A stretch of DNA of 35,319 bases from Phycisphaerae bacterium. Its GTDB lineage: Bacteria > Planctomycetota > Phycisphaerae > SM23-33. The translations under genes were made by a program, and so were the position numbers. The stretch is taken from NCBI GenBank assembly GCA_003551645.1, contig PUND01000025.1, positions 1 through 35,319 on the forward strand. The letters are read 5' to 3'. Position 1 is the first letter of the stretch. Every line of letters starts with the position of its first letter. This document shows positions 2,723 through 22,075 of the stretch, piece by piece. The notes below the pieces were generated by a model. It saw only the letters and a program-made list of their open reading frames with translations. It ran no database searches and was not told the DNA's origin.

Positions 2723-2726
2723 CAGC

Positions 2727-3165: not shown

Positions 3166-3190
3166 GGTGCGTTACGGTTGGTTGCGTCTT

Positions 3191-5202: not shown

Positions 5203-5213
5203 ATAAATTCAGC

Positions 5214-5356: not shown

Positions 5357-6517
5357 TCAGGTCGGTCGAAAGCGCCGGCGGTACTCGGTCGGGGTCATTC
5401 CGGTTTCCTTGTGAAACACCACGCTGAGGCGGCTGGCACTGCTGAAGCCCGCTGCGGCCGCGACCTTCGGCATCCTCATGTCGGTGTCCGAAAGCATCTG
5501 CTTGGTCAGTTCGATCCGCACGCGGATGATTTCATCCAGCGGGCTTCGCCCCAGCATCTGGCGGAACCGCCTCTCCAGCGACCTGCGCGACGTTGAGCTG
5601 TGGCGCAGCACGTCCGAGACCCCTATAGGGTCGGTCGCGTGCGTCCGGATGAATCGCAGCGCCTCGGCGACATCGGCATCCTCGACCGCCAGGATGTCCG
5701 AGGACTGCCGTGTAACCACGTGCGAGGGCGACAGCAGCAACGGCTCCTCAGGCGCCGGGGCGCCGGCAAGCATATCGTCCAGCAGCCGGGCGGCCTTGAA
5801 ACCGATCTCGCGCAGCGGAAGCCGCACACTGGAAAGCGGCGGCCTGGCCATCTCGCAGAGCAGCTCGTCGTCATCCACGCCGACTATAGCAATATCCTCA
5901 GGGACTCGCAGCTCGGCAAGCCGGCATCCCTCTGACAGCCGCATGGCCATCACGTCGTTGCACGCGAACACCGCCGCGGGGGTAGCCAGAGAATTCAACC
6001 ACCTCGTTATGGCGGCGTCACTGTGCTTCCAGCTACGCTCACGGTACGCGGAGATCGGCCCGCCCCGTTCCAGAAAGACATGGCTGTCCAGCCCGTCTGA
6101 GCTGAGCCGCTTTTTGAAGCCCGACAGCCGGCGGTCGGAGTAGGCGGTGTCCCGCTCACCGACGACACCGAACTCCTGAAAACCCCGCTCCAGAAAGTGT
6201 TCCGCCGCCAATCGCCCTATGGCCTCATCCTCCAGGCCCACTCGCGGCACGGCCACGTCACGCAACACGCCGGAGACATTCACGGCCGGGCGATTCAGTT
6301 GCTCCACCGCCGCTGCGTCGGCCGGCGCAGAAAGATGGGCTATCACGCCCGCCGGCTCCCACTCGGCCAGAAGGCGTCCGGCGTTCGAGCCAGGCAGCGC
6401 CCAATTGAAGACCCACGGCCGGCCCTGCTTGGCGTACGCACAGACGCCCCGCAGCACCTGCCGTCCATAGCCGAAATCCATCGCGATAATTAGCGCTATA
6501 CGTCGCGTCTCGGACAT
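5357..6517 (-). CDS. XylR-like transcriptional regulator (LacI-type sensor plus AraC DNA-binding domain)
   Basis: A 386-residue cytoplasmic regulator. Residues about 5-270 resemble the periplasmic-binding-protein-like sugar sensor of LacI/XylR proteins: MDFGYGRQVLRGV at the start, FACNDVMAM near the hinge, and EDIAIVGVDDDELLCEMARPP. Residues about 285-386 form an AraC/XylS double helix-turn-helix, with RRSLERRFRQMLGRSP and the terminal GMTPTEYRRRFR. This architecture matches E. coli XylR (392 residues), which senses xylose. Planctomycetes hold many such regulators with diverse sugar ligands, so the ligand is unknown. GAGG lies 5 bases before the ATG. It is divergent from the prepilin-like gene and has a terminator at 5214-5234. 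Confidence 0.9.
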   Translation of the reverse strand: MSETRRIALIIAMDFGYGRQVLRGVCAYAKQGRPWVFNWALPGSNAGRLLAEWEPAGVIAHLSAPADAAAVEQLNRPAVNVSGVLRDVAVPRVGLEDEAIGRLAAEHFLERGFQEFGVVGERDTAYSDRRLSGFKKRLSSDGLDSHVFLERGGPISAYRERSWKHSDAAITRWLNSLATPAAVFACNDVMAMRLSEGCRLAELRVPEDIAIVGVDDDELLCEMARPPLSSVRLPLREIGFKAARLLDDMLAGAPAPEEPLLLSPSHVVTRQSSDILAVEDADVAEALRFIRTHATDPIGVSDVLRHSSTSRRSLERRFRQMLGRSPLDEIIRVRIELTKQMLSDTDMRMPKVAAAAGFSSASRLSVVFHKETGMTPTEYRRRFRPT

Positions 6518-6548
6518 TTCAACCTCGCTGACTCGCTGAAAAGTTCGG

Positions 6549-6554
6549 ATTATA
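6549..6554 (-). promoter_or_regulatory. Perfect -10 box for the XylR-like gene
   Basis: TATAAT on the minus strand, about 32 bases upstream of the ATG at 6517. The position 16-17 bases further upstream (TTTCCG or CTTTCC) is a weak -35, suggesting dependence on an activator or weak expression. Confidence 0.45.
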
Positions 6555-6612
6555 TTGCTTAGATATCGGACGGAAAGCGAAATTTTTTTGACGCAAACAA
6601 GTCTTGCCCTCA

Positions 6613-6632
6613 GGTAATAACCTTCGGTAATA
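6613..6632 (+). promoter_or_regulatory. Direct repeat GGTAATA in the divergent intergenic region, candidate operator
   Basis: GGTAATA occurs at 6613-6619 and 6626-6632, a 13-base period, and the first copy sits in the small palindrome GGTAATAACC. The repeat lies midway between the regulator and the prepilin-like gene. A TATACT at 6653-6658 could be a -10 for the rightward gene. Operator function is inferred. Confidence 0.3.
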
Positions 6633-6781
6633 TGGATTACAGTTGAGCTGGATATACTGTCGCCTTTGAGGTTGAGATCGCGGCCAACGGAGTTTTTCAG
6701 AGTTCATTGTCTGGAAGCAGGCATCCGCAACGGTGCGCAGGACGAGGCCGAGGGTGCCCGGTCACGAGTGGAGGTGTGTCT

Positions 6782-7606
6782 ATGATGGTCAGGTCGGTAC
6801 GGCAGGCAGGTCGCGGACGGGGCTTTACGCTGATCGAACTGCTGGTGGTGATCGCCATCATCGCCCTTCTGATGAGCATTCTGATGCCGGCCCTTGGACA
6901 GGCACGGGAGCAGGCACAGAGCGTGGTGTGCCTGACGAATCTTCATGGCATCGGGCGCGGCGTGGCCCAGTACGCCAACGAATTCCGGGATTTCATCTTG
7001 CCCGGTCAGTTTCGTGATCCGTATGCCGAGAACAACTGGGCGTCGCTTATGGTCAACCAGGGCTATGCGAATGCCCCCATGGCCGATGGTACCGAACCGG
7101 CGCAGACCGGCACGCTTTTCCACTGTCCGTCCGCCTCGGACACCGTCGTCACGCAGGACTCCCGCGGCTTCTGGCCCCTGCCCGATGACAGGAACGACCC
7201 GCAGGGCTATCTCGGAACCGCCCAGCGGTGGACAAGAGACGACCAGGAAAAGCTGATTCACGTCTGGTATGCAGCGAACATGGCGACCTGGAGGGTGGAT
7301 GACTTCCCGTTCACATCCTTTCCTCAGGGAGGCGGGGGCAGGGAAGTGCTGCACAGGATGTCCGACGTCAGAAGACCGGCGGACATGGTGGCCATCTATG
7401 ACGGCGTCTGGGCGCACAACGACGGAACGACTAACAATGGGTGGGCCAGGATCTTCCCGCGCCACATCAACGGCAGGTTCTGCAACGCCCTGTTTGTGGA
7501 CGGTCACGCCGATTCGCTGGACAGGCAGATGCTCCCGGTCGGCAGCCTTCAGCACGAGGCCAGTCACGTCAGAAGGCCCCCCGAATGGTCGCTGGCGCTT
7601 CAATAG
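6782..7606 (+). CDS. Type II prepilin-like protein (N-terminal methylation motif, C-terminal H...DG motif)
   Basis: A 274-residue pseudopilin-like protein. After 14 residues it shows the prepilin peptidase site G-FTLIE, with Glu at position 5 of the mature chain, followed by one hydrophobic helix ([19 protein letters not shown]) that anchors it in the membrane. The C-terminus carries [20 protein letters not shown], the H...DG motif typical of the large planctomycete DUF1559-like prepilin families. Their exact role is unknown; they are abundant and often sit beside sugar regulators. The ATG at 6782 is fixed by GGAGG 7 bases upstream and by the position of the leader peptide. No pilus or secretion genes lie near it. 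Confidence 0.9.
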
Positions 7607-7754
7607 AAGGCCGGTCGCAGCCAAGACGTGAAACCGACGCCGCGATTCCGGACTCGCTGACGCCGTATCTTTGCTCTACTGCCGAAATCTCCCGCCGGAA
7701 GCATTGCCCCGCTGGCTCGGCACCGCACTCCGCGTTGCCTGGCAGACGGTGAAA

Positions 7755-8675
7755 ATGGTATCTTCCGCAGTGTACATGGACACCCCATGGGAACAGACCT
7801 GCTGGCGAGGGCTGACGGTGAACCATCCCGCCGACTGGGAGGTCGCCTATGCCGCCGGTACGTCCGAACGTCCAAGGATTACCTTTTCGGACCGTAGGTA
7901 CCGTCGCCTGGACGTCTTCTACGAGTTCATCGACTTCAAGCCGAACATCGAGCTTATGCTGGACCGGTATCGCCGCGAGGCCGACCCGGGGGTCGAGTTG
8001 AAACCCCTGACGGACGCGACGGGCGAGTGGCGTGGGCTTATCCGTCACGAACCCGACGGAACCGTGGTCCATGCCGGGAAATTTTTTGAGCAGGCGGGCT
8101 GCTTCGTCGAGGCGGCGGTGGTCTGGCCGGATCAGCGCGACAAGCGCCTGGAGCGGGATTTGCTGAAAGGCATCCACCCGTGCGAGTCGGATGAGCCGAG
8201 GCGGCTGTGGCAGGCAATGGGACTGTCGGTGGCGATGGACCGCGAATATGACCTGCAGAAGCACTCCTCGCGCGTGGGCCGGATAATCTGGGAATTCGCC
8301 CCGGACCCCAGACGCGGGCCGTTCCTGACAGTCCGGCGGCTGGCGATGCCTCAACACTGGCTCAAGGTGCCGCTGGTGGACTGGCTGCCCTCCCAGATCC
8401 CCGGCGAGTACACAGAAGACGACCGCCGTGAACGCGCCTTCAACAATCACGCCGGCGCGGAGGTCGTAAGCTCCCACCGCGGCGGACCGGCGACCCGGCT
8501 GCGGCGAAGGCGCCGGCTTCGTCTGGATGTGGCGTGGCTTTGTGAAACCGAGGACCGCGTGTATCACATCTCCTACGCCGAAGAGTCTCGCAATCGCAGC
8601 CCGGAGCTGCCGGATGTGTTCGAGATAAGGTGCTGCCGCGAGGTGCACGTGCCGGCTCCGGCGGGAGAGCTGTAA
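7755..8675 (+). CDS. Protein of unknown function, first gene of the PqqD-FtsX-OPT operon
   Basis: A 306-residue soluble-looking protein with no signal peptide or membrane segment and no family I recognise. It is rich in Trp and Arg. Near the N-terminus it reads CWRGLTVNHPADWEVAYAAG, followed by beta-strand-like stretches such as RLDVFYEFIDF, a pattern suggesting a small beta-rich fold. An Arg cluster follows near residue 260 and a short C-terminus contains CCREVHV. It ends in a TAATG stop-start overlap with the PqqD gene, so translational coupling is likely. The start is uncertain: ATG 7755 has a GGTGA sequence very close by, ATG 7776 has no ribosome binding site, and the frame is open back to 7671. 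A job tied to the PqqD protein or the ATPase is a guess from position only. Confidence 0.7.
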   Translation: MVSSAVYMDTPWEQTCWRGLTVNHPADWEVAYAAGTSERPRITFSDRRYRRLDVFYEFIDFKPNIELMLDRYRREADPGVELKPLTDATGEWRGLIRHEPDGTVVHAGKFFEQAGCFVEAAVVWPDQRDKRLERDLLKGIHPCESDEPRRLWQAMGLSVAMDREYDLQKHSSRVGRIIWEFAPDPRRGPFLTVRRLAMPQHWLKVPLVDWLPSQIPGEYTEDDRRERAFNNHAGAEVVSSHRGGPATRLRRRRRLRLDVAWLCETEDRVYHISYAEESRNRSPELPDVFEIRCCREVHVPAPAGEL

Positions 8676-9082
8676 TGCCCGGCAAGCGAGATAAATCTCA
8701 GCGGCGAATGTCGGCCGAGCAGGTGCTCTCGGCCGTGCCTTACCGGAACGCCGCCATGGAGGTTCGCCGTAACAACGACGGAACCGCTGTGGTGTCCGTG
8801 CCCATGAAGCGCCCCCGCTGGCTGGCGCCGCCGCTTAGCTGGGTGATACCGTTCAGCTCGCACCGTCGCGTGGAGCTGGACTCGGTGGGCGCGGCGCTGC
8901 TGGATTTGTGCGACGGCACTCGGGACATTGAAGCAATCATTGAAAAGTTCGCCGCCGACCATAAGCTTTCCTTCCGCGAGGCGCAGCTTTCGGTAACAAG
9001 GTTCCTCCAGCAACTGAGCCAGCGCGGAGTGGTGGCCGTCGTCGGGCTTTCGACAGAGGAAGCCGGAGCACAGCAGGCATGA
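8675..9082 (+). CDS. PqqD-family peptide-binding protein
   Basis: A 135-residue protein whose residues about 62-123 match the PqqD fold: RRVELDSVGAALLDLCDGTRDIEAI followed by an amphipathic helical stretch ending RGVVAVV. In PQQ and other RiPP pathways PqqD-like domains (RiPP recognition elements) bind a precursor's leader and hand it to a radical SAM enzyme. Neither a PqqA-like precursor nor a radical SAM enzyme is seen in this window. The N-terminal 60 residues are basic and Pro/Trp-containing (PRWLAPPLSWVIPF) and form an extension beyond the usual 90 residues. The start at 8675 shares the A of the preceding TAA and has GGAGAG upstream. The stop overlaps the next ATG as ATGA. Confidence 0.8.
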   Translation: MPGKRDKSQRRMSAEQVLSAVPYRNAAMEVRRNNDGTAVVSVPMKRPRWLAPPLSWVIPFSSHRRVELDSVGAALLDLCDGTRDIEAIIEKFAADHKLSFREAQLSVTRFLQQLSQRGVVAVVGLSTEEAGAQQA

Positions 9083-10794
9083 AACTGGACGTTCGTCAAC
9101 AGGTCCGTCTTCCGCTGCGACGCTGCGTGGAGCTTGTCGTCAGCGGCATACAGTTTCGGCTGTTCCGGGCGGCGATAACAGTCGGCATCATCGCTCTTGC
9201 GGTGGCTTTTCTGATGACGATGCTCACCGAGAGCTTTACCGCCAGGGAGGTCGCCGGGGCCATCGAGGAGCGTGTCGCCCCCCGTGAAGCGATGCTTACC
9301 TGGGTCAACCGGCTCTCGACCGGCATGACGGAGAATGAGGTTAACTCCCTGCTGCTTAAGGCCGAAACCGACCCGGACCGAGCCGCGGAGCTGAGACACT
9401 GGGGCGGGTTGGACCAATCCGAGATGGAAGAGCTCGTCAACGTGGCTCGAAGGCGGGACTTTTATCTGGGTTTCTTCGAGGAACAACCCGAAGGCATCCT
9501 CCGCGAAATGGTCGGCCGCGACCGTGGCGACCAGGTATTCCGGCGACTCTCGGACCCCGAACGCCTGGAGGAGTTTCGCCTCGCTCTGCCGCGGGCGACC
9601 ACCCAGTTCCCAACAGACATGGACGAATTCAACAGTTTTCTGCAGCACTATCAGGCCACGGCCGAGCACCGACAGCAAATCCGGAAGGGGCACGAACAGG
9701 CCATCAGCCAACTGAAGGAGAAGTTCCCCGACCTGCGGGCGGTGGAGATACTCGCCGAGGCGGACGACGACCTGCCGGATATTCTGGAGCCGCTGGGCTT
9801 TCGCATGAGCAGCGAGCAGTTGGAGCAGGTGCGAAGGGAGGCGCGGCTGAGCTTGGACGTCGAGCAGTTGAACCGGCTGTTAACGGTTCGTCAGGTAAGG
9901 GCGCGGCTGGCCCAGCGCGGGGCCGCCGGCAGAATCGCCGACGTCACGCAGGAGACTCTGCTGCGCGAGGTCCGCTCGAAGGACGGGGCGAGCTGGCTGA
10001 TCTCGATGGTGGAGGGCCTGCTACGGGAGCACCGCGATCTCGTCGAGCAAAGAGATGAACTGAGCGACCGTGTCGAGCAGCTCAGCGAGCAGACCGAGGA
10101 AATCCGCGAGAGCGTGGAAACGCTGCCGGCCGAGGCCGAGCAGCACGAGCACGAGGAGGCCAAGCAGCGCCTGACTCAGGCCGAAACAGACCTCGAAGCC
10201 GCCATGCTCGAATACGATAGGATAAGCGAAGACCTCCGGGCACTGGAAGCGGCCGAGCCGATGCTGCGGGATCTGGACCTCTCGGCCGAAAGAGTCAGCG
10301 AGGTAGCCAGGCACCGTCTCGAGCAGCGTCAACTGGCCGATATAGAGACAGCCGTCTCGCAGGCGGCAGTCCGGGGTGGGGTGCTGGGCTTTTCGACGCG
10401 AGCCATGTGGTTGATCGTCGTCTCTCTGATGGTCTGCATAGTGGGAATCGCAAACGCCATGCTGATGAGCGTCACCGAGAGGTTCAAGGAGATCGCCACC
10501 ATGAAGTGCCTCGGCGCCACCGACGGCTTCATCATGATCAACTTCATACTGGAATCGTGCTTCCAGGGCCTGGCCGGAGGACTTATCGGCGCGGTGCTGG
10601 GCCTTGTTCTGGGGCTGGTGCGCTCCTGGCTGAACTACGGTACGCTTTCGCTGATGCAGCTTCCGCTTGTCAGCGTGCTGGCCGCCGCCGGCGCGACGAT
10701 CGGCATCGGCGTGGTGCTCTCGGCGATGGCGGCGGTGTACCCGGCCCGCGTGGCCGCCCGGCTGGCGCCGATGGAGGCGATGCGCATTGAGTGA
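9079..10794 (+). CDS. FtsX/MacB-like ABC permease with a long helical extracytoplasmic domain
   Basis: A 571-residue inner-membrane permease. The topology is that of FtsX proteins: TM1 at about 31-50, then TM2 442-465, TM3 491-515 and TM4 531-556. The TM2-TM3 loop ERFKEIATMKCLGATD matches the family's EIGxxKALGA-type coupling motif that contacts the ATPase. The region between TM1 and TM2 is about 390 residues and mostly helical, with a heptad-like coiled-coil stretch near 315-400 (LVEQRDELSDRVEQLSEQ). This differs from the beta-rich periplasmic core domain of MacB. It overlaps the PqqD gene by 4 bases and is followed at once by its likely ATPase. The transported or signalled substrate is unknown. 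Confidence 0.88.
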   Translation: MKLDVRQQVRLPLRRCVELVVSGIQFRLFRAAITVGIIALAVAFLMTMLTESFTAREVAGAIEERVAPREAMLTWVNRLSTGMTENEVNSLLLKAETDPDRAAELRHWGGLDQSEMEELVNVARRRDFYLGFFEEQPEGILREMVGRDRGDQVFRRLSDPERLEEFRLALPRATTQFPTDMDEFNSFLQHYQATAEHRQQIRKGHEQAISQLKEKFPDLRAVEILAEADDDLPDILEPLGFRMSSEQLEQVRREARLSLDVEQLNRLLTVRQVRARLAQRGAAGRIADVTQETLLREVRSKDGASWLISMVEGLLREHRDLVEQRDELSDRVEQLSEQTEEIRESVETLPAEAEQHEHEEAKQRLTQAETDLEAAMLEYDRISEDLRALEAAEPMLRDLDLSAERVSEVARHRLEQRQLADIETAVSQAAVRGGVLGFSTRAMWLIVVSLMVCIVGIANAMLMSVTERFKEIATMKCLGATDGFIMINFILESCFQGLAGGLIGAVLGLVLGLVRSWLNYGTLSLMQLPLVSVLAAAGATIGIGVVLSAMAAVYPARVAARLAPMEAMRIE

Positions 10795-10801
10795 ACGCGA
10801 C

Positions 10802-11590
10802 ATGACCGAGACAACGCAGACATCCCCGCCGCAGTCGCCGGCGCCCGAGGCCGACCGGCCGGTAATCATCCGCACACGCGGACTGCAAAAGCACTACAAG
10901 ATGGGCGAGGTGATTACCAAGGCCCTCCAGGGCATCGACATAGAGATTTACCGAGGAGAGTTTCTCAGCGTGCTCGGGCCTTCCGGCTCCGGCAAGAGCA
11001 CGTTTTTCAACATGGTCGGCGGTCTGGACTCGCCCACCGAGGGTCGGGTATTCATCGACGAGGTGGACGTCGCTCAGCTCAACGCCATCGAGCTTGCGTT
11101 CCTGCGATGCCGCAAGATCGGCTACATCTTCCAGACCTACAACCTCGTGCAGTACATGACGGCGCTGGAAAACGTCACGGTGCCGATGGCCTTTGCCGGA
11201 GCCGACGCCGACCGGGCCAGAGAGCGCGGAATGGAGATACTGGAGCTGGTGGGGCTTAAGGAACGCTGGTTCCACAAACCCATCGAGATGTCCGGCGGAC
11301 AGCAGCAGCGGGTGGCTATAGCCCGCTCCATGGCCAACGCACCGTCAATCCTGCTGTGCGACGAGCCGACCGGGAACCTCGACCTGCAAACAGGCGCAGA
11401 GATTCATGAGATTCTCAGGCGACTCAACTGTGAGCACGGTGTGACGATTATCTGCGCCACCCACGACCACCGGCTCATCAACATAGCCCACCGGATCATG
11501 TGGATCCGGGACGGACAGATAGACCGACTGGCCGAACGCAACGAAGTGACCATCGAAACAGGCGCCATCGGAGGTGAGGAAAATGGCTGA
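10802..11590 (+). CDS. LolD/MacB-type ABC transporter ATP-binding protein
   Basis: A 262-residue nucleotide-binding subunit. Visible are Walker [10 protein letters not shown], the Q-loop region YIFQTYNL, signature [12 protein letters not shown], Walker [13 protein letters not shown] and the switch histidine in ATHDH, all canonical, so it should hydrolyse ATP. The first 20 residues are a Pro/Thr/Gln-rich extension. ATG 10802 has only a weak GAGTG upstream. An in-frame TTG at 10787, overlapping the permease stop, has GGAGG 9 bases ahead and is a real alternative that adds five residues. It probably energises the upstream permease, the downstream fused permease, or both as a heteromeric complex. 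The stop overlaps the next gene by 8 bases. Confidence 0.93.
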
Positions 11591-14500
11591 CCAGCGGCGG
11601 AAAATTCTGATGTTGGCCGCTGTCGCCGCGCTGGCGTTGTTCTGCGGGTGCGGATCGGAAGCCGAAGCCGACGACCAGGTACCCGACCAGCCGCCGGAGG
11701 CCCCGGAAACCGACACCGGGCATGTTGATGCTGAGCCGGATGAGCCGACCGAGGTGGAGGCCGCGGACACGCAACCCGCCGACATACCGGCCGGCGAAGC
11801 ACGGTTCGACAAAGACCGTTTTCTGCACGACATACGCGAACTGACCAGCGGCGACCACCGGCTCGCGGGCCTTCCGGAAGGCAGCCGTCGCGCGAGCAAG
11901 TACGTCGAGCAACGGCTGCGCGACGCGGGCGTCGAGGATGTATTCGTCCAGGAGTTTCCGGTTATTCAGAATATCCCGACCGAGTCGCGGCTCGTCTCAG
12001 ACGGTCGGGAGTATCCTCTGCTGGCCTGCCGACCGAACCTGCTGCAAGCGTCGGTTACGCCGGCCGACGGGCTTACCGGAAAGACGCTCTATGCCGGCGA
12101 AGGGGACATGGCCGAGTTCGGCGACGAGATGCCCCAGGACCGCATCGTCGTGATGGAGTGGGACAGCGACCTGCGTTGGCTACGTGCCTTCGCGTTCGGC
12201 GCCAAGGCGGTGGTGTTCATCGGCTCGGAAGAACCCGCGCCCAACGCCTGGCACCACCTGCACATGCCTGCGAACCTGCCACGGTTCTACGTTCCGGAGG
12301 AAACGGCCGAGGAGCTTGAACTGCGAAGCCGGCCACGAGAGGTAACGCTCCACGCCGCAAGTAAATGGGACGAGCTTAGCGGCAGAAACGTCATAGCCCA
12401 CCTGCCGGGCACCGACCCGGAGTTCGTCCAGGGCCGGCCCGAACAGGCGGTGGTGCTGGCGGCGCCGCTGGACAGCTACTCCGAAGTACCCGCCCTGTCT
12501 CCGGGTGCTCGCGGAGCGGCCAACGCCGCGGCGCTTCTGCAGCTTGTGGAATACTACCGGGTCAACCGCCCGCGGCGGGACATCATCGCGGTGTTCCTGG
12601 ACGCCCAGGCGCAGTCGCACGCCGGAGCGAGGGCATTCTACGGGGCCGTCGCCGCGGACGACAGGCGGGCCGAGGCCGTCAAAGACCGTATCAAGAACTT
12701 CGAGGATGAGCGGGAATACCGGCGGCAACTGCTGGATATTTTCAGCCGCGACGACCTGTTCGCCCCAGACACAAAAGGCCTTGCCTATTACGAAGAGGCC
12801 TTGCGAGCCGTCAACGACGAGGTGCTGAACTTCAGCAGCGACGTGCTTGAGCAGCTCCGTCCGCTGCGGCTGGAGCGGTCCCGCCTCAGACGTCGCGAGG
12901 AGTCGGTGCCGAGTGAACTAGAGGAGCGGATCGAGTTCCTGGCCGCTGAGGACCTCGGCTGGAACACGCTCCAGGGCTACATCGCCAACCACAGGCAGCA
13001 CGGCATGTCCGAGCCGGAGCTTGCCGAGCACGCCCGGCGGGAACTGGCCCGGCATGAGCGGGGGCTGCGACGGCTGGACTCCGACGAAGACCCTCGTGCC
13101 AGCGACCTGCGTATACAGCGGGCCATCTACGACGGGCTGATGGACAAGATGGAAATCGCCAAATGGCGGATGCGGGACATGACGACCAGCCGCCTCGAGG
13201 AGCTTGACACGCTCGAGGCCCGCGCCAAAAAAGACCTGGAGCTGCGAGATCGCTTCGGCCCGAAGCAAAGGCACCTGGTGCTGCACGTCAGCGTGAACCT
13301 CGGCGACGCCCGTCGGCAGTGGTCGTTCGTTCACGGAGACGACAGCGGACCGATGATGGGCGACGACCCGGGCTACTACCGGGGCCTGTTTGCCACCATG
13401 GACGAAACCGCCCGCCAACTGGGCGAGGATGCGGCGGATTTCGACCGGCGCGCGCTCTCGCCGGAATACAGCAGCCGGCTTTTCGCACCCGGCCGGTTCG
13501 TTCACAGCGGCGCGGCCGCGAGGATGTTCGCGTTATTCAACGTCGCGGCGATGACGTCCATGGACCGGCTCGATCGCGAGGGCCAGCCCGCCGACACGCT
13601 GGAGGCGCTGGACACCGACGCGGTGTTCTCCCAGACGCGGCAGTTGGGCGCGTTCCTGCACCGCCTGACCGAACACCGCGGACTTACCCTTTCGCCGCGA
13701 GCGCGTCCCCGCGCGAGGTGGCACGAATCACGCTGGGCCTTGCCACAGTCAACCGGCGGCCGGGTCCGCAGAGCTGGCGCCGGCAGCGCCATGGCCGACC
13801 GCTCCGTGCCCGACGCAGTGGTGGCGATAATCACCAGGGGCGTCGGCGGACACTGGGACATAAACAGCGTTCGGGAAAACCCGCCCGGATTCGTCAGGCC
13901 CATCCTGACACGTACCAACACCGACGGCGTCTTCAGCGTCGGGCCTTACGTGCCCGACCCCGGCTCGGGCCAGACCCCGCCGGCTCCGCTGATATTCTCG
14001 GCCGCCTTCGACGAACCAACCGTACTGTCGCAGCGCCAGAACCAGGAGGATGACTCCCACAGCCGGGGGCTTATCGCCTATGCGAACACCGAAGACACCT
14101 TCGAGCAGGACCGAGACCTCAGCAGCGCGTCGGTTGAGCTGTTCCACACCCGCGGTATCACCCTGGTGGGATTCGGCTTCCACCGAGGCGCTGTAGGCAC
14201 CCGCGCGATGGATGCCTCCAGCGGCGCGCGATTCAGCAACGATCGGCACCAGTTGTGCGAGTGGGAAAACGTCCTGACGCTTTTCGCGCCTTACGAGATC
14301 GAGCGGTACTCGTTGTTCAACCGTGCCGGCATGGTGCTGCTGAACAACGAGCCGACCCGGGAAGGCCACCAGGGCCAGGGCCTTCTGCTGGCGGATCCCT
14401 GGAGCCGCCCCGCGACGCCGGAGTGGACCGCGGGAGACCTGTCTCGGCTAAACGAATACCGGCTGTCTCTGCTGAGGGGAAACCGCATCAACGAGGAATC

Positions 14501-16871
14501 ACTGGAGATCATACACAGCAAGGCCAGGGCACTGGCCGAGGACGTCGAGCGGCGCGACCAGTCGGACTCCGCGGCCGGCGCGGATGAAGGCGGCGACGAA
14601 GACCCGCCCATGTCCGTCCAGCGGTATTTCGCCGGCAAGAGCGCCTCCGCGGCGTATTCACGCGGGGCGTATTCACCTTCGGTGAGCGTGATAACCGACC
14701 TGGTCAACGCGGTCGTACTGCTGCTTCTGATGGCTATGCCGTTCGCCTACGCCCTGGAACGGCTGATTATCGGCACACCGCATATCTACCGGCAGATCGG
14801 CTGGTTCACGGCGTTTTTCCTCCTGACCTTCATCCTGCTGTATCTGGTCAATCCCGCGTTCAGCATAGCCGCTACGCCGGTGGTTATCTTTCTGGCGTTC
14901 GCGATTATCCTGCTCAGTTCGCTGGTTATCTTCATCATGATCCGCAAGCTTCAGGCGGAGCTTAAGAAGCTCCAGGGGCTTTCGGTCAGCGTCCACAGCG
15001 CGGATGTTTCCCGGCTCAGCACTATGCTGGCCGCGGTGCACATGGGCATCTCCACCATGCGTCGCCGCCCGCTTCGGACGCTGCTGACCGCCTCGACGGT
15101 GGTTCTGCTGACGTTCACCATCCTGGCGTTCGCATCCTTCGGAACCAGTTGGGGCCTGCGGGAGCGGTACGAAGGCCCGCTGACGAATCCGCCGCCGCGG
15201 ATACTGGTTCGCAGCCAGCTCTGGAGCCCCGTCGGCGACGGCGTGTACGAGACGCTTCGCGGGCACTTCGACGGGCGCGGGCAGGTCGTCCCGCGATACT
15301 GGCTTTCGCCGACCGCCGGCGAGGTCGAACGCGCGATGGCCGACAACCGCGACCTTCAGAAGCTGGTGGCCGCGGGCGATGGCTCGCAGGCAACGAGCAT
15401 TGCCGCCGCGGTCGGTCTGGATCGGCGGGACGTGCAAAATCAGCAGGAGCTTGCCTCGATGCTCAGCGGCCGCTCGGAAATGCTCGAAGACGACGGCATA
15501 TTCCTGACCGAGGCGGTCGCGAGCGAGCTTGGTCTGACCGAAGACGATACCGGCAACGCCGACGTGCTGCTGGCCGGCAGAAGGTTCACCTTCGCCGGGA
15601 CCATACTCGATGCGATGGCCGGCTACACCCTGCTGGAAGACTCAAGCATTCTCCCGGTGGATTACCAGACTACCACAGGCGGCGCGCTGGAGTCGCTGCA
15701 GGATACCGGCGTGACCGCGCGCGGAGAGATGCCCGACATCGAGACATCGCAGTTCGTGACCTACAACCTTGACCGCGTGGTGATTATATCACCACGGGCG
15801 GCCGAGCGGCTGGGCGCCGAGATACGGGCCGTGAAGGTTTACCCCGACCAGCCGGAGGATATCCGCGAGCTGGCCTCCGAAGCGGCCCACATATCCAAGC
15901 TGCCGACCTACGTCGGCGACAGCGGCGGCGTGGACCGGCTAATCTTCGCGGCGCTGGCGACGGCCAGCGGCTGGCGGGATCTGATGATACCCGTCCTTCT
16001 GGGCGGTCTGATAGTGTTCGGAACGATGCTCGGCAGCGTCTCCGACCGCGAGCGGGAGATATACACCTTCAGTTCGCTTGGGCTTGCGCCGCCGCACGTG
16101 GCGAGCTTGTTCTTCGCCGAGGCGTCGGTTTACGCGGTGGTCGGCGGGATGGGCGGATACCTGCTCGGACAGCTCGTTACGAGGGTAATGGGCTTTCTGG
16201 CGGAGCTTGGCTACGTGGCCGTGCCGTCCATGAACTACAGCTCCACCAACGCCATCGTGACCATCCTGATCGTAATGGGCACGGTGCTGATTTCGACAAT
16301 CTATCCGGCGGTCAAGGCCTCGCGAAGCGCCAACCCCGGCATCCAGCGGCAATGGCGAATCCCCCCGCCCAAGGGCGACCTGTACGACCTGGTGTTCCCG
16401 TTCACCGTCTCGGCTTACGACATAACCGGTGTGGTGAGCTTCCTGAGGGAGCACTTCCACAACCACGCCGACGAGGCGCTCGGCGGCTTCGCCACGACCG
16501 CCTGCGAGATCTTCCGCCAGGAAGACAACGACATGCTCGCATTCGGCGCGACGGTGGCGCTGGCGCCGTTCGATCTGGGGGTGAATCAGGACTTCGTACT
16601 GCTGAGCCGCCCGAGCGAGATCGAGGGCATCGACGAGGTCCGCATCATGATATATCGTCGCAGCGGCGCCCACGGCGACTGGCGGCGAGCCAACAGAGTC
16701 TTTATAAACGACCTTCGCAAACAGTTGCTCATCTGGCGATCGCTGCCGGATGATGTGATAGATAACTACCGCCGCCAGACACTGAGCGGCTGGGAGGACC
16801 TGCCCCGACGGCGAGTTGACGCCGAAAGCTTCGGCCGCAACCATACCCCCACCGGACAGGGAACCACCTAG
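11583..16871 (+). CDS. Giant fusion: M28-like pseudopeptidase ectodomain plus FtsX-like permease
   Basis: A 1762-residue membrane protein; the ATG has GGAGG 8 bases upstream. It begins with a hydrophobic signal-like segment ending FCGCG, so cleavage or lipidation at Cys21 or Cys23 is possible, though the lipobox is poor. Residues about 60-360 resemble an M28 aminopeptidase with an inserted PA-like domain (LTSGDHRLAGLPEGSRRASKY at the start is typical). The metal and catalytic positions are lost: the AHYDS histidine is Pro295 (APLDS), the PGADDN aspartates are Arg310/Gly311, and the glutamate pair is Gln342-Ala343. A helical insertion follows at 360-570. Membrane helices lie near 1040-1060, 1070-1090, 1096-1121, 1165-1187, 1466-1486, 1513-1540 and 1555-1578. 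The last four form an FtsX core with the motif DREREIYTFSSLGLAP. A 180-residue cytoplasmic C-terminal domain is unidentified. Confidence 0.85.
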   Translation: MADQRRKILMLAAVAALALFCGCGSEAEADDQVPDQPPEAPETDTGHVDAEPDEPTEVEAADTQPADIPAGEARFDKDRFLHDIRELTSGDHRLAGLPEGSRRASKYVEQRLRDAGVEDVFVQEFPVIQNIPTESRLVSDGREYPLLACRPNLLQASVTPADGLTGKTLYAGEGDMAEFGDEMPQDRIVVMEWDSDLRWLRAFAFGAKAVVFIGSEEPAPNAWHHLHMPANLPRFYVPEETAEELELRSRPREVTLHAASKWDELSGRNVIAHLPGTDPEFVQGRPEQAVVLAAPLDSYSEVPALSPGARGAANAAALLQLVEYYRVNRPRRDIIAVFLDAQAQSHAGARAFYGAVAADDRRAEAVKDRIKNFEDEREYRRQLLDIFSRDDLFAPDTKGLAYYEEALRAVNDEVLNFSSDVLEQLRPLRLERSRLRRREESVPSELEERIEFLAAEDLGWNTLQGYIANHRQHGMSEPELAEHARRELARHERGLRRLDSDEDPRASDLRIQRAIYDGLMDKMEIAKWRMRDMTTSRLEELDTLEARAKKDLELRDRFGPKQRHLVLHVSVNLGDARRQWSFVHGDDSGPMMGDDPGYYRGLFATMDETARQLGEDAADFDRRALSPEYSSRLFAPGRFVHSGAAARMFALFNVAAMTSMDRLDREGQPADTLEALDTDAVFSQTRQLGAFLHRLTEHRGLTLSPRARPRARWHESRWALPQSTGGRVRRAGAGSAMADRSVPDAVVAIITRGVGGHWDINSVRENPPGFVRPILTRTNTDGVFSVGPYVPDPGSGQTPPAPLIFSAAFDEPTVLSQRQNQEDDSHSRGLIAYANTEDTFEQDRDLSSASVELFHTRGITLVGFGFHRGAVGTRAMDASSGARFSNDRHQLCEWENVLTLFAPYEIERYSLFNRAGMVLLNNEPTREGHQGQGLLLADPWSRPATPEWTAGDLSRLNEYRLSLLRGNRINEESLEIIHSKARALAEDVERRDQSDSAAGADEGGDEDPPMSVQRYFAGKSASAAYSRGAYSPSVSVITDLVNAVVLLLLMAMPFAYALERLIIGTPHIYRQIGWFTAFFLLTFILLYLVNPAFSIAATPVVIFLAFAIILLSSLVIFIMIRKLQAELKKLQGLSVSVHSADVSRLSTMLAAVHMGISTMRRRPLRTLLTASTVVLLTFTILAFASFGTSWGLRERYEGPLTNPPPRILVRSQLWSPVGDGVYETLRGHFDGRGQVVPRYWLSPTAGEVERAMADNRDLQKLVAAGDGSQATSIAAAVGLDRRDVQNQQELASMLSGRSEMLEDDGIFLTEAVASELGLTEDDTGNADVLLAGRRFTFAGTILDAMAGYTLLEDSSILPVDYQTTTGGALESLQDTGVTARGEMPDIETSQFVTYNLDRVVIISPRAAERLGAEIRAVKVYPDQPEDIRELASEAAHISKLPTYVGDSGGVDRLIFAALATASGWRDLMIPVLLGGLIVFGTMLGSVSDREREIYTFSSLGLAPPHVASLFFAEASVYAVVGGMGGYLLGQLVTRVMGFLAELGYVAVPSMNYSSTNAIVTILIVMGTVLISTIYPAVKASRSANPGIQRQWRIPPPKGDLYDLVFPFTVSAYDITGVVSFLREHFHNHADEALGGFATTACEIFRQEDNDMLAFGATVALAPFDLGVNQDFVLLSRPSEIEGIDEVRIMIYRRSGAHGDWRRANRVFINDLRKQLLIWRSLPDDVIDNYRRQTLSGWEDLPRRRVDAESFGRNHTPTGQGTT

Positions 16872-18910
16872 TGACAGGAATAAGATACGACCGGGAGCTG
16901 CAGCAATATCGCGACCTGATGGAGGTGCCCTCGCGCTTCGACGAGGGGTTCAGTTGGACGGCTCTCATAGGCGCGCTGTTCATCGCGCTGATGATGGTCC
17001 CAGGCGCGATGTATATGCAACTTCTGGCCGGTATCGGGGTAGGCCCGGCGGCGCAGTGGGTCACGGTCATCCTGTTTATCGAGGTCGCCAGGCGTGCGCA
17101 CAAGCGACTGCGACGCGCGGAGGTCTTCGTGCTGTTCTACATGGCCGGCGCGGTCATGATGGCCAGCCCGCACGGGCTTGCCCAAGGCCCCGTGCGGATA
17201 CTCTTTCACCAGTTCTTCGCCCAGAGCCGGGCGGCCACCGGAATGGGCGTCGCCGAGCAGTTGCCGGAATGGTTCGCCCCCACCGACCCGACCGTGCTGG
17301 CCGAGAGGAACTTCTTCAACCCGGCCTGGTACCCCGCCATAGGGCTGGTGGTGTTCCAGTTCCTGATGAGCCGCGTCAACCTGACGGTGCTAAGCTACGG
17401 ACTTTTCCGCGTGGCCAGCGATATCGAGAAGCTGCCTTTCCCGATGGCGCCCATCGGCGCCCAGGGCATAACCGCCCTGGCCGAGCAGCAGAGCGAGGAA
17501 AGCAAAGAGGGACAACAGGAGGAGGACGACGGGAACTGGAGGTGGAGGATATTCAGCATCGGGGGCGTGCTCGGGATGGGCTTCGGGGCCATCTATACCG
17601 GTCTGCCGACGTTTTCGACGGCGTTTCTGGACGAGTCCATAACCATCCTGCCCATACCGTTCACCGACTGGACTCGCCAGACGGGCAGCTTCCTGCCGGC
17701 CGTCGCCACCGGGTTGAGCTTCGACATGGGACAGCTCGTGCTCGGAATGGTGCTGCCTTTCTTCGCGATGCTCGGCAGCTTTATAGGGCTGATGATAACG
17801 TTCCTGCTCAACCCCATCCTCTATCGTTTCGGCATATTGTGGAGCTGGACGCCGGCCGACGAGACCGTCCAGACGCTGTTCAAGAACAACGTGGACTTCT
17901 ACTTCAGCTTCGCCATAGGCATCGCAATCGCCATCGCCCTTGCCGGCTTCTGGCAGGTCTGGCGCGGAATAGCCGCGAGGCGGCGAGAGAAAAAACGCCG
18001 CCTGCAGGCCCAGGGCGACGTCGCGGAGATGATAGAGCACAAAGGCCCGCCGCCTGATAGAGGCGACCTGAACCCGGCGCTGATAATCGGGCTGTATGTA
18101 CTGGTTTCGATGGCCTATATCCTTCTCAGCGGGCACCTTATCGACTGGCACAGGGGTGTGATGATAGTGCTGGTGTTCTTCGCGTTCCTTTACACCCCAC
18201 TGCTGAGCTATGTGACCGCGCGGCTGGAGGGCATGAGCGGTCAGGTCGTCGAAATACCCATGGTCCGCGAGGCGGCGTTTATCCTGTCCGGCTACACCGG
18301 CGGGGTGGATGTGTGGTTTTTGCCGATTCCCATGGGCAACTTCGGCCAGAGGACGGTGTTCTGGCGACAGGCGGAGTTGACCGGGACGCGATTCTGGTCA
18401 CTGTGGAAGGTGGAGCTGCTGCTGATGCCGATCGTGGTGGTGGCGTCCATTCTGTTCGCGCAGTTTCTCTGGTCGCTCTCGCCGATACCAGGCCCGCAAT
18501 ACCCATATGCCCAGACCATCTGGGAGCTTAACGCCGCAAACCAGTGCATTATCTACACCGCAACGCTGGGCAGACACAGCGCGTTCGCCGAGGCGTTCAA
18601 CGTGCGATACCTGGCCGCCGGTGCGGGATTCGGCGTGGCGATGTTCGCTATTATGAGCTTGCTTCACCTGCCGGTAATGCTGGTTTACGGCGTGGTCCGC
18701 GGTCTGAACCAGACGCTGCCGCACGTTGTGATTCCACAGTTTATAGGAGCGCTTATCGGACGGTACTACTTCGAAAGGCGCATGGGCCTGCGATGGCGGC
18801 AGTACGCGCCGGTGATAATGGCCGGGTTCGCCTGCGGCATGGGGCTGGTAACCATCCTCGGCGTAGGCGCCATATTCCTGGCCCAATCGGTTATCGAGAT
18901 ACCGTTCTGA
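16871..18910 (+). CDS. OPT-like (oligopeptide transporter superfamily) polytopic membrane protein
   Basis: A 679-residue inner-membrane protein with about 14 hydrophobic segments. Its size and pattern fit the OPT superfamily and the related large planctomycete membrane families (DUF6784/DUF6785-like). Landmarks are LPEWFAPTDPTVL near 140, FQFLMSRVNLTVLSYGLF near 170, and a Gln/Glu-rich cytoplasmic loop around 205-225. A basic cytoplasmic loop RRREKKRRLQAQ lies near 375, and SLWKVELLLMPIVVVAS near 515. OPT carriers move peptides or metal-siderophore complexes by proton coupling. The substrate here is unknown. The GTG start shares its G with the preceding TAG stop and has AGGGA upstream, so it is translationally coupled to the giant fusion. 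Family placement is moderate; membrane nature is secure. Confidence 0.72.
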   Translation: MTGIRYDRELQQYRDLMEVPSRFDEGFSWTALIGALFIALMMVPGAMYMQLLAGIGVGPAAQWVTVILFIEVARRAHKRLRRAEVFVLFYMAGAVMMASPHGLAQGPVRILFHQFFAQSRAATGMGVAEQLPEWFAPTDPTVLAERNFFNPAWYPAIGLVVFQFLMSRVNLTVLSYGLFRVASDIEKLPFPMAPIGAQGITALAEQQSEESKEGQQEEDDGNWRWRIFSIGGVLGMGFGAIYTGLPTFSTAFLDESITILPIPFTDWTRQTGSFLPAVATGLSFDMGQLVLGMVLPFFAMLGSFIGLMITFLLNPILYRFGILWSWTPADETVQTLFKNNVDFYFSFAIGIAIAIALAGFWQVWRGIAARRREKKRRLQAQGDVAEMIEHKGPPPDRGDLNPALIIGLYVLVSMAYILLSGHLIDWHRGVMIVLVFFAFLYTPLLSYVTARLEGMSGQVVEIPMVREAAFILSGYTGGVDVWFLPIPMGNFGQRTVFWRQAELTGTRFWSLWKVELLLMPIVVVASILFAQFLWSLSPIPGPQYPYAQTIWELNAANQCIIYTATLGRHSAFAEAFNVRYLAAGAGFGVAMFAIMSLLHLPVMLVYGVVRGLNQTLPHVVIPQFIGALIGRYYFERRMGLRWRQYAPVIMAGFACGMGLVTILGVGAIFLAQSVIEIPF

Positions 18911-19024
18911 TTCGACACAAAGCGCGAGATAACGAGGATAATGTGATTACCCAGCTGAAGAAGTACTCCTGAGAAGCCACAGACTCCGCGAATCGCGCAA
19001 GACCAGGAATTGCCCCCACGCTAT

Positions 19025-19753
19025 ATGAACAGAGACGAAATCATCATATCCTGCCGGAACCTCAGCAAGGTCTATCGCATGCGCGATTTGGAGGTCTATG
19101 CCCTGCGGGATATCGACCTGGACATCTACCAGGCCGAGTATCTGTCGGTAATGGGACCGTCGGGATCGGGCAAGAGCACGCTGTTCAACATGATCGGAGC
19201 GCTTGACCAGCCCTCGGCCGGCTCGGTGACCATCGGCGGGGTGGACCTGACGAAGCAGTCGTCGCTGGAGCTTGCCTATATCCGCAACAGGCACATCGGC
19301 TACATCTTCCAGGCATTCAACCTCATCCAGTCGCTGACCGCGTTGCGGAACGTGATGCTCCCGCTGGTGTTCTCCGGACTGGACACGCCATCGGCCGAGA
19401 GCCGGGCGACAGAGGTCCTGGAGGAGGTCGGGCTGGGCGACCGGCTGCACCATCGACCTTCGGAGCTTTCCGGCGGACAGCAGCAGAGGGTCGCAATCGC
19501 CCGGGCGCTGTCGATGGAGCCGACCATCATGCTCGCCGATGAGCCGACCGCGAATCTGGACCTGCACACCGGCGAGGAGATCATAAACACCCTCCGCAAG
19601 CTCTGCGACAACCACGGCGTAACCGTGATAACCGCCACGCACGACCACAACATGCTCGACAAATCCGACCGCATACTCTGGATAAAAGACGGCCAAAAGG
19701 ACCGTCTCGAAGACCGGGCCGACCTCGACATTCGTGTCGGCAGGGTCGAATAG
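19025..19753 (+). CDS. Second LolD/MacB-type ABC transporter ATP-binding protein
   Basis: A 242-residue ATPase subunit with canonical [41 protein letters not shown] and ATHDH motifs. It is close to the ATPase at 10802-11590 across the core but lacks its N-terminal Pro-rich extension. It follows the OPT-like gene after 114 bases and probably ends the operon. With two permeases upstream, one ATPase per permease or a mixed heterodimer are both possible. The ATG at 19025 has no clear ribosome binding site; a TTG at 19010 is also in frame but its AGGA is too close. The start is therefore uncertain, the function is not. Confidence 0.92.
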   Translation: MNRDEIIISCRNLSKVYRMRDLEVYALRDIDLDIYQAEYLSVMGPSGSGKSTLFNMIGALDQPSAGSVTIGGVDLTKQSSLELAYIRNRHIGYIFQAFNLIQSLTALRNVMLPLVFSGLDTPSAESRATEVLEEVGLGDRLHHRPSELSGGQQQRVAIARALSMEPTIMLADEPTANLDLHTGEEIINTLRKLCDNHGVTVITATHDHNMLDKSDRILWIKDGQKDRLEDRADLDIRVGRVE

Positions 19754-19810
19754 TGCGCGAACGGGAAGCCCTTATCCGGCGTACCATGTGTGAACCCCGT
19801 GAATTCGTCC

Positions 19811-19846
19811 TTGATTCAGCCGCTTTGATAACCTAATGTTCATTAG
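19811..19846 (+). promoter_or_regulatory. Promoter with overlapping palindromic operator for the Skp-like gene
   Basis: TTGATT at 19811-19816 and TAATGT at 19834-19839 are 17 bases apart. The -10 lies inside the perfect inverted repeat CTAATG-TT-CATTAG (19833-19846). A repressor bound there would block RNA polymerase. The downstream ATG is at 19910. Confidence 0.5.
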
Positions 19847-19909
19847 TCTCGCGATGGCCGCGAGCATGGAGTAACTTGCCGAAACCTGCAGCCCCCCAGG
19901 AGCATCCCA

Positions 19910-20428
19910 ATGCGATTTATCCGAAAGAACCCGAAGCTTTCATTTGCTGCGCTGCTTGCAGTCGTAGTCGCCGGCGGACTGATCGTCGCGGCTCAGGTTC
20001 AAGCCGGCAGTCATGAAAACGATGAGGATCAAGACGCCCGGATCGCCGTAGGCACGTACAATCCGGGCCAGGCCTTCGAAAGTCATCCCAAGCGACACGA
20101 GCTGGAGGAAACCGCCCAGGCCGCACAGGCCCAGATGCAGCAGGCCCAGCAGGCCGAGGACCGGCAAGCGATGATGCGGATCCAGCAGGAGTTCCAGATG
20201 AATCAGCAGCGCATCATCCAGGAGTTCCAGAACGACGTCGAGAAAGTGATGCCCACTGTGGTCGAGGCCGAGAACGTGCACGTGGTTGCGATGGAAATCG
20301 TGTACGCCCGTCCGGAGGTCGAGACCAAGGACGTCACCCAGGCCGTCATCGCCGAGCTTGCCCAGATTGTGGACGAGCCGGAAGAAACCGAACTCGAAGC
20401 CGAACCGGATATGCCCTGGCTTGAATAA
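19910..20428 (+). CDS. Exported OmpH/Skp-like coiled-coil protein
   Basis: A 172-residue protein with an N-terminal signal peptide: basic RFIRKNPK, a hydrophobic core, and a cut site likely after VQAG or QVQA near residue 33. The mature part starts IAVGTYNPGQAFESHP, like the beta-strand that opens Skp. It continues as a long Gln/Ala/Glu-rich helix (residues about 60-110) and ends with VVAMEIVYARPEVETKDVTQAVI, which resembles the closing strand and helix of Skp/OmpH. Skp is a trimeric periplasmic holdase for outer-membrane proteins. Length matches E. coli Skp (161). The last 20 residues are acidic, ending EPDMPWLE, and are unusual. AGGAG precedes the ATG. Similarity was judged by pattern only. 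Confidence 0.65.
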   Translation: MRFIRKNPKLSFAALLAVVVAGGLIVAAQVQAGSHENDEDQDARIAVGTYNPGQAFESHPKRHELEETAQAAQAQMQQAQQAEDRQAMMRIQQEFQMNQQRIIQEFQNDVEKVMPTVVEAENVHVVAMEIVYARPEVETKDVTQAVIAELAQIVDEPEETELEAEPDMPWLE

Positions 20429-20615
20429 GCCGGCAACGGTCTCACAATAGAGGCATATTCCGGCACAAGTACTGTCCTGACGGCAGGCGTGCCTGTCGCC
20501 ACCTGGTGTCAGCGCACGCCCGCCGTTGAGGATATTCCGGTATCTTGGACCCGGCACCTGCCGTTTGCACAATCAGCTCATCGCCGACTCCGAGCGCCGG
20601 GTCGGAGCAATCTTC

Positions 20616-21155
20616 ATGACCCCAGGTGCGAATCAGGCCGGACAGAACGTCGGGAACGGGTCAGACAGACATCTGTGCCGCCGAGCCATCTCCGTGGGCG
20701 CCGTCGATGCCAGGGTTGTATCACCTTCCGACATCGTCACCGACGTATGGGTGCGCTGGAAGTGTCAATTCGGCTGCGGGGGCTTCGGCTCCAGCTTGAT
20801 GTGCCCACCCCACACGCCGCAACCCCGGCAGACACGACGCATGCTGAACGGGTATAAGCGGGCTGTTCTGTTCGAGGCCCCGCCGGGAACATCCGGGAGA
20901 ATCGCCGTCGAACTGGAACGCGAGCTTTTCCTGGCGGGCTTCTACAAGGCGCTGGGACTGGGCGCCGGGCCGTGCAATCTGTGTTCGCCCTGCCCGCTGG
21001 AGCCGCCCTGCCGGCATCCGGACCGCGCACGGCCGAGCATGGAGGCATGCGGCATAGACGTTTACGCCACCGCCCGCCGCCACGGTTTCCGGATAAACGT
21101 CGTCCGAGACGAGGACGACCCGCAGCACTACTTCGGCCTGGTGCTGGTCGATTAG
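20616..21155 (+). CDS. DUF2284 cysteine-rich putative metal-binding protein
   Basis: A 179-residue soluble protein of the DUF2284 family of predicted metal-binding proteins, whose biochemical function is unknown. Cysteine clusters are visible as WKCQFGCGGFGSSLMCPPH near residue 50 and GPCNLCSPCPLEPPCRHPDR near 125, followed by the family hallmark RPSMEACGIDVYATAR. The arrangement suggests an iron-sulfur cluster or zinc sites. The ATG at 20616 is chosen because GGAG stands 8 bases upstream; the frame is open back to 20526. The gene is alone between the Skp-like gene and the HtpX-like gene. Confidence 0.85.
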   Translation: MTPGANQAGQNVGNGSDRHLCRRAISVGAVDARVVSPSDIVTDVWVRWKCQFGCGGFGSSLMCPPHTPQPRQTRRMLNGYKRAVLFEAPPGTSGRIAVELERELFLAGFYKALGLGAGPCNLCSPCPLEPPCRHPDRARPSMEACGIDVYATARRHGFRINVVRDEDDPQHYFGLVLVD

Positions 21156-21175
21156 ACCCCCGTTGTCCGCTGCGT

Positions 21176-21205
21176 TTGAACCGCAACCCACCGCTGTGCT
21201 AGACT
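21176..21205 (+). promoter_or_regulatory. Promoter for the HtpX-like gene
   Basis: TTGAAC at 21176-21181 and TAGACT at 21200-21205 are separated by 18 bases, 39 bases ahead of the ATG at 21245. Confidence 0.5.
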
Positions 21206-21244
21206 GAGTTTGACCAATACGCCATCAGGCGCGGAGACACCCCT

Positions 21245-22075
21245 ATGTACGGACTGTGGAACAACTTCAAAACGACAATGCTCCTGGGCGGGCTTATGGG
21301 CCTTTGCCTGGGTATCGGCTATCTGCTGGGCGGTACATCGGCGCTGATACCGGCGCTGGTGATCGGCGGGGCGATGAATTTCATCGCCTTCTTCTATTCC
21401 GACAAGATCGCCCTGGCGATGATGCGCGCAAAGGAGGTCTCCCGACAGGACGACCCGGTACTCTGGGACACCGTCGAGCGGCTCGCCCGGCAGGCGAACA
21501 TGCCGATGCCGCGAGTGTGCGTCTCACCGGCCGCGGCACCAAACGCCTTCGCCACCGGCCGAAGCCCCAGACACAGCGCCGTCTGCGTTACGCAGGGGCT
21601 GCGGCGGATGCTTTCCGACACCGAGCTTGCTGGCGTCGTCGCCCACGAACTGAGCCATATCAAGCAGCGGGATGTGCTCATATCAACGGTGGCGGCCGCC
21701 GTCGGCGGCGCCATCACCGTGCTGGGTTACATAGCGCTGTTTTTCGGCGGCGGGAACAGGCGAAGCCCCCTGGTCGGGCTGCTTATTCTCATCACCGCCC
21801 CGCTAGCGGCCGGGCTGATACGAATGGCCATCAGCCGCTCGCGGGAGTTCGAGGCCGACCGCAGGGCCGCTGAGATCGTCGGCTCGCCGCGAGGACTGGC
21901 GGACGCCCTGCAAAAGCTCGACGCCATGAGCAGACGGGCGCCCCTGCCGGTACCCGAAAGCCACAGCAACATGTTCATCGTCGAGCCGCTCACCGGACGC
22001 GACACGCAGAAGCTGTTCATGTCCCACCCGCCGGTGGAGGACCGCGTCCAACGCCTGCAGGCAATGGAACGCTGA
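21245..22075 (+). CDS. htpX: HtpX-like membrane zinc metalloprotease (M48)
   Basis: A 276-residue inner-membrane protease that degrades damaged membrane proteins on the cytoplasmic side. Two membrane segments near residues 12-30 and 34-52 precede the catalytic domain. The zinc motif HELSHIKQRD lies near residue 138 and the third ligand Glu in SREFEADRRA near residue 200. Two more hydrophobic segments (AAAVGGAITVLGYIALFF and VGLLILITAPLAAGLI) lie between them. The C-terminal SHPPVEDRVQRLQAM is typical of HtpX. It is slightly shorter than E. coli HtpX (293). GGAG precedes the ATG by 8 bases. All catalytic residues are present. Confidence 0.93.
   Translation: MYGLWNNFKTTMLLGGLMGLCLGIGYLLGGTSALIPALVIGGAMNFIAFFYSDKIALAMMRAKEVSRQDDPVLWDTVERLARQANMPMPRVCVSPAAAPNAFATGRSPRHSAVCVTQGLRRMLSDTELAGVVAHELSHIKQRDVLISTVAAAVGGAITVLGYIALFFGGGNRRSPLVGLLILITAPLAAGLIRMAISRSREFEADRRAAEIVGSPRGLADALQKLDAMSRRAPLPVPESHSNMFIVEPLTGRDTQKLFMSHPPVEDRVQRLQAMER

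Follow-up and report, generated by a model that had tools for sequence, protein, structure and literature searches.

The stretch analysed here (the window) is a whole contig of 35,319 bases from a Phycisphaerae bacterium, contig C142 of genome G000 (2.83 Mb, 94% complete). It carries a seven-gene operon that is part of a real and widely conserved system. The genes encode an unclassified cytosolic protein (U), a PqqD-domain protein, an FtsX permease (FtsXa), a giant permease with a peptidase-like head (BIG), a carrier of the OPT superfamily (OPT1) and two ATP-binding cassette (ABC) ATPases, a and b. Our analysis predicts that the ATPases, the permeases and the OPT carrier are a type VII ABC motor. 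It would drive OPT1 and also dispersed carriers of the DUF6785-DUF6784 family (DUF6785 below). We give this reading a probability of about 0.38. Its odds were slightly lowered, because the gene counts are smaller than the counts of match rows and because linkage explains part of the result in a second phylum. A broader proposal is more tentative and a little less probable. It states that, throughout the Planctomycetes-Verrucomicrobia-Chlamydiae (PVC) group, OPT-type carriers encoded across the genome (OPT1 and DUF6785) are interchangeable and draw their power from a single type VII ABC motor whose head is a pseudo-peptidase. The parts are of known kinds, and their assembly and the one-to-many pattern appear to be new. 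In the open-access part of the literature, which is what was searched, no description of the operon or of DUF6785/DUF6784 was recognised, and no paper found names these two domains.

A scan of named genomes with OPT1 gave at least 561 confirmed places. The best 80 were used and 40 loci were added, which makes 120 loci, 108 of them distinct by OPT1 sequence. Because they were selected by OPT1 similarity, without control gene pairs, the locus counts describe near relatives. The best 80 come from Planctomycetota, Verrucomicrobiota, Lentisphaerota, Kiritimatiellota, one Omnitrophota record and some bacteria recorded as 'PVC group'. The culture-collection strain Oligosphaera ethanolica DSM 24202 (L136) is among them.

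In 104 of the 105 distinct loci with enough upstream sequence, the gene immediately before OPT1 is BIG. The sole exception (L150) has broken frames. Among 32 long loci (upstream sequence over 9 kb, downstream over 5 kb), a second FtsX gene is present in 31, two or more ATPases in 30, PqqD in 24, U in 23 and DUF6785 in 20. U and PqqD look like accessories rather than core parts, since they are missing from 9 and 8 of these loci. The order FtsX-ATPase-BIG-OPT1 was found in at least 50 of the 108 distinct loci, and the full order U-PqqD-FtsX-ATPase-BIG-OPT1-ATPase in 12. This tally counts the 40 commonest arrangements; many contigs end within the operon, and long overlapping open reading frames (ORFs) may disturb the order. 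An earlier note on this DNA had asked whether the gene order extends beyond close strains, and it is kept far beyond them, across several phyla.

We clustered the neighbouring ORFs of at least 60 residues. A single further gene that is clearly real recurs in more than ten loci. It encodes a DUF6785-DUF6784 protein (PF20581, E 1.1e-75; PF20580, E 3.5e-18). BLAST places it inside or next to the operon in 45 distinct loci, and a profile finds it in 48 of the 120 with duplicates counted. The remaining large clusters resemble shadow frames of this gene. A MacB/LolCDE-type pump for export or for upkeep of the envelope, co-inherited by chance with OPT-type carriers, would have the type VII parts and LolD-like ATPases seen here. 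However, these ORFs include no recurring adaptor or outer-membrane partner, and OPT1 is the gene most tightly linked. We consider such a pump improbable.

Far less credible is a cluster for ribosomally synthesized and post-translationally modified peptides (RiPPs), where PqqD would bind the precursor and the ABC set would export the product. The part of one article that we consulted says that PqqD-like proteins near enzymes and transporters mark RiPP clusters dependent on an RRE, a RiPP recognition element (PMC7470986). The PqqD family match agrees with this. Nevertheless, PqqD is missing from a number of long loci, as given above. The cluster is also disfavoured because no maturase recurs beside the operon among ORFs of at least 60 residues; shorter precursor ORFs were not searched.

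The presence of DUF6785 follows that of BIG. The genome sets comprised 199 Planctomycetota, 100 nearer relatives and 194 genomes from the phylum of Oligosphaera. In the Planctomycetota, for which Fisher values were computed, DUF6785 is above the cut-off in 26 genomes, all within the 28 that have the BIG tail. OPT1 occurs in 27, again all with the BIG tail. OPT1 apart from the ABC genes, which the earlier note had named as a sign against a joint system, was therefore not seen in this set. The 14 control genomes have no DUF6785. Among the nearer relatives, OPT1 is present in 27 and DUF6785 in 30, and all 27 OPT1 genomes are shared. The genomes G200, G211 and G229 show DUF6785 but neither OPT1 nor BIG; their assemblies are 57-72% complete. 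With completeness of at least 90% and contamination of at most 5%, each gene is found in 17 of 73 genomes. The two genes also covary within five families: they agree in 97 of 100 genomes, and 20,000 shuffles within families, which leave some effects of descent, never gave more than 87. In the phylum of Oligosphaera, DUF6785 is above the cut-off in 31 genomes, BIG in 30, and both in 28.

In several genomes the carriers outnumber the motors and are dispersed. In G223, a single BIG stands against ten DUF6785 genes, all located outside the operon. G203 has one BIG and five DUF6785, and G202 one and four, some of the latter cut by contig ends. The numbers are one and three in G248, with one of the three in the operon, and one and two in G225. 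In G204, two BIG accompany five DUF6785, some again cut by contig ends. The largest numbers are in G130 (three BIG and 17 DUF6785 places) and in Oligosphaera ethanolica (two BIG and 11 places). Match rows exceed genes here, with 21 rows for the 17 places and 13 rows for the 11. Parity was observed in G215 and G217 (one of each) and in G000 (two of each).

The window's operon has no DUF6785 gene. Of the two in its genome, one lies on contig C59, on the same strand as genes for a ClpB-type ATPase and a formate-tetrahydrofolate ligase. The other belongs to a further, divergent version of the system on contig C30 (L083, positions 1-20000). It holds DUF6785, BIG (a frame of 1910 residues), a short FtsX protein, an ATPase and an OPT protein that shares 37% identity with OPT1. 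Elsewhere, locus L202 (G056:C1:2760000-2775500) has three tandem DUF6785 genes at 4564-11147. In Oligosphaera ethanolica (L179), a DUF6785 gene and a second OPT gene are direct neighbours, close to where BIG matches this genome a second time (3339159).

Genome G079 shows a different arrangement (L211-L214). Four BIG copies have DUF6785 neighbours, and there is no OPT1 match genome-wide, the only such case of BIG in the Planctomycetota set. Two of the contigs stop at BIG, one runs straight on to an ATPase, and L212 continues for about 5 kb after BIG without OPT1. Because BIG and DUF6785 occur here without OPT1, DUF6785 may stand in for it.

This case and the close tracking of BIG by DUF6785 are both left unexplained by a scheme of peptide capture and recycling. 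In that scheme, the dead M28 head would bind peptides or lipopeptides, the ABC stroke would release them to OPT1, and PqqD and U would receive them in the cytosol. DUF6785 proteins would be separate transporters of organisms that share a way of life. The M28 fold, the PqqD and OPT families and the fixed BIG-OPT1 pair agree with the scheme, but about one long locus in four lacks PqqD, and about as many lack U. We judge it unlikely. The envelope machine of the earlier note was of this kind. Its operon, ABC set, degenerate head, OPT carrier and conservation hold. However, it left U out and overlooked the DUF6785 partner outside the window. It also made PqqD a peptide binder or, alternatively, an adaptor of the ATPases; the domain is present, and from its pattern of absence it looks like an accessory.

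Several observations weigh against a motor shared by OPT1 and DUF6785. BIG occurs without DUF6785 in G031 and G186 (Planctomycetota) and in G423 and G469 (phylum of Oligosphaera). DUF6785 matches below the cut-off occur without BIG in G003, G124, G389 and G421, and marginal ones (about 30 bits) in G415 and G450. The clearest exception is G335, with a strong DUF6785 (450 bits; C7:9363-10838) and no BIG. The BIG tail was still absent from G335, G415 and G450 when the search was repeated at E 0.1. In eight genomes of the second phylum (G301, G325, G343, G355, G420, G461, G467 and G479), the sole DUF6785 is no more than about 8 kb away from BIG, which means that part of the co-occurrence there is due to linkage. 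The profiles of OPT1 and DUF6785 match each other weakly (probability 56%, E 1e-4, 131 columns). Moreover, the published type VII ABC systems compared are not solute importers, according to the parts of the publications consulted.

The neighbourhoods of the dispersed DUF6785 genes count on the same side, being mixed. We scanned 91 of 104 selected flanking ORFs as a set, and 30 proteins individually. The matches listed include GH127, GH20, sugar-type ABC import, SASA esterase, Gfo/Idh/MocA, TIM-barrel isomerase-like, BNR and nucleoside phosphorylase proteins. They also include ClpB, formate-tetrahydrofolate ligase, SAM synthetase, PheT, TPR and kinase genes. Lacking a background count for comparison, we draw no substrate claim from these neighbours.

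All seven genes lie on the plus strand over 7755-19753 and abut or overlap, as had been described (Table 1). Pfam assigns the PqqD protein (40.1 bits, cut-off 23.4), two FtsX proteins, two ABC ATPases and the OPT carrier (30.7 bits, cut-off 25.8), and nothing for the first gene, U. Seven of 20 OPT1 relatives match PF03169 at E 0.01 (best E 1.7e-14). The OPT1 profile had no match among PDB sequences. PF02687 is above its cut-off in both FtsXa (E 1.2e-14) and BIG (E 1e-8). The hydropathy of FtsXa gives transmembrane (TM) segments at residues 31-49, 445-463, 489-507 and 523-541, the first set apart by a large extracytoplasmic part, as in type VII permeases. For both ATPases, models of the LolD type rank top, yet under their equivalog cut-offs. 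A MacB/LolCDE-like set of two permeases and two ATPases, and an OPT-like carrier beside it, had been proposed from the letters alone, and both are borne out.

Table 1. Genes of the operon and parts of BIG in the window.
Feature	Coordinates	Strand	Description
U	7755..8675	+	cytosolic, 306 residues, predicted tandem Mog1/PsbP-like domains
PqqD-domain protein	8675..9082	+	135 residues; PF05402 E 4.8e-10; alignment of 36 relatives
FtsXa permease	9079..10794	+	571 residues; PF02687 E 1.2e-14; four TM segments (hydropathy)
ATPase a, LolD/FtsE-like	10802..11590	+	motifs intact
BIG	11574..16871	+	1765 residues; start ATG at 11583 would give 1762
BIG head	11793..13688	+	M28 aminopeptidase fold, long helical insertion, degenerate metal ligands
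BIG extra TM helices	14682..14936	+	residues 1037-1055, 1080-1098, 1103-1121 (hydropathy)
BIG tail	16329..16868	+	unclassified cytosolic domain; mean column identity 55% over 42 sequences
OPT1, OPT-superfamily carrier	16871..18910	+	679 residues; PF03169 E 1.8e-7
ATPase b, LolD-like	19010..19753	+	ATG at 19025; motifs intact

BIG has 444 relatives at E 0.001 or better. It consists of a signal-like helix, the M28-like head, a beta-rich part, three TM helices, an FtsX core and a cytosolic tail. The FtsX match covers residues 1474-1584, and hydropathy detects three of the four TM helices expected in the core. The head has the M28 fold, with Pro, Gly, Gln and Ala at the four tested positions, which we take to be metal or catalytic positions; two further ligands were not located. 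None of 214 aligned rows keeps more than two of the four. The ectodomain thus has an aminopeptidase fold with degenerate ligands and is probably dead, as first suspected. The tail is the best conserved measured part of BIG, with 24 invariant columns. It has no Pfam match, and its one match against the PDB is at chance level and no relative. The U profile found no shared fold in it (probability 0.1%).

Each half of U is predicted to have the Mog1/PsbP/DUF1795 fold. In 5 distinct loci, U is fused to PqqD. Pfam gives weak single-member matches alone for 45 U relatives, PsbP included. U occurs in 21 of the 199 Planctomycetota genomes, all 21 with BIG. This protein is central to one more explanation, the biogenesis or quality control of carriers. 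Modelled on the Eag chaperones, as they are described in the portion of the source consulted, U and PqqD would chaperone hydrophobic segments of OPT1 and DUF6785. The ABC machine would insert, mature or extract these carriers. The co-occurrence of BIG and DUF6785 would follow about as well as from a shared motor. However, the Z values place U nearer to PsbP, Mog1, Apa and Tsi3 than to the Eag proteins, 7 of the 28 BIG genomes have no U match, and such a machine has no need for a large pseudo-peptidase head. We rate this explanation as doubtful, on a par with peptide recycling.

If the shared motor is real, ATPases a and b would pair beneath FtsXa and BIG in the inner membrane. The M28-like head would be a ligand-binding receptor rather than an enzyme. 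The three TM helices between the head and the FtsX core are a candidate docking site for carriers, and ATP-driven movement could reach the docked carrier through them and the conserved tail. Free carriers would take turns on one motor. U and PqqD may be cytosolic accessories that bind a carrier segment or the incoming ligand. The import direction is assumed from the OPT family.

Other genes surround the operon in the window. Just upstream, on the same strand, is a prepilin-type gene (N_methyl, PF07963; 6707-7606), whose profile matched 5 of the 120 loci. Further upstream, on the minus strand, is a XylR-like AraC-type regulator with a periplasmic-binding-protein-like domain (5357-6517). After the operon, at 19910-22075, are OmpH-like, DUF2284 metal-binding and HtpX-like M48 peptidase genes, none of whose profiles retrieved a relative from the 120 loci. 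The minus strand also carries a HypF-type [NiFe]-hydrogenase maturation gene at 28580-30988.

The shared motor, if true, would be an FtsX-based counterpart of the energy-coupling factor (ECF) transporters. Members of a superfamily known for secondary transport would then be powered by ATP, and solute transport would be added to the roles of type VII ABC machines. The large unnamed DUF6785 family and the giant permease would gain a common function. Planctomycetes and their relatives would get a testable shared system, present in Oligosphaera ethanolica DSM 24202. The analysis also brings to light U and the BIG tail as protein families that are still unclassified.

The individual proteins can be compared with known families. 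OPT carriers are proton-coupled secondary transporters. OPT1 is a member by Pfam (PF03169) and, unlike the others, is always beside BIG in the loci tested. The second carrier, DUF6785-DUF6784, is found in or beside many operons and also dispersed, and Pfam gives it no function. The BIG head resembles the M28 peptidases and their non-catalytic relatives, such as the transferrin receptor. It differs in its fusion to an FtsX permease and in the loss of the ligand positions in nearly all relatives. U resembles the fold of PsbP, LpqN and the Eag chaperones, but has two copies per chain, adjoins or is fused with PqqD, and in the window has no sequence-family match.

In the ECF transporters of group II, one module is shared among several substrate-specific proteins. 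They serve as our working analogy, from the part of the source consulted, with two ATPases and a coupling membrane protein per module and several dispersed substrate-specific proteins. The operon is not a member of this class. Its membrane proteins are FtsX-type rather than EcfT-type, and its carriers are OPT-like, of about 680 residues, instead of small S-components. The type VII ABC systems (MacAB, LolCDE, FtsEX and YbbAP-TesA) are the closest class. They share LolD/FtsE-like ATPases and FtsX permeases whose extracytoplasmic domains are large, and YbbAP-TesA, as far as its description was consulted, also couples a type VII transporter with a hydrolase. Compared with them, the operon has two ATPases that are not alike and two permeases that differ strongly; one permease bears a degenerate M28 head, additional TM helices and a tail of a new kind. 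Finally, an OPT carrier is fixed alongside, and the DUF6785 carriers track the system.
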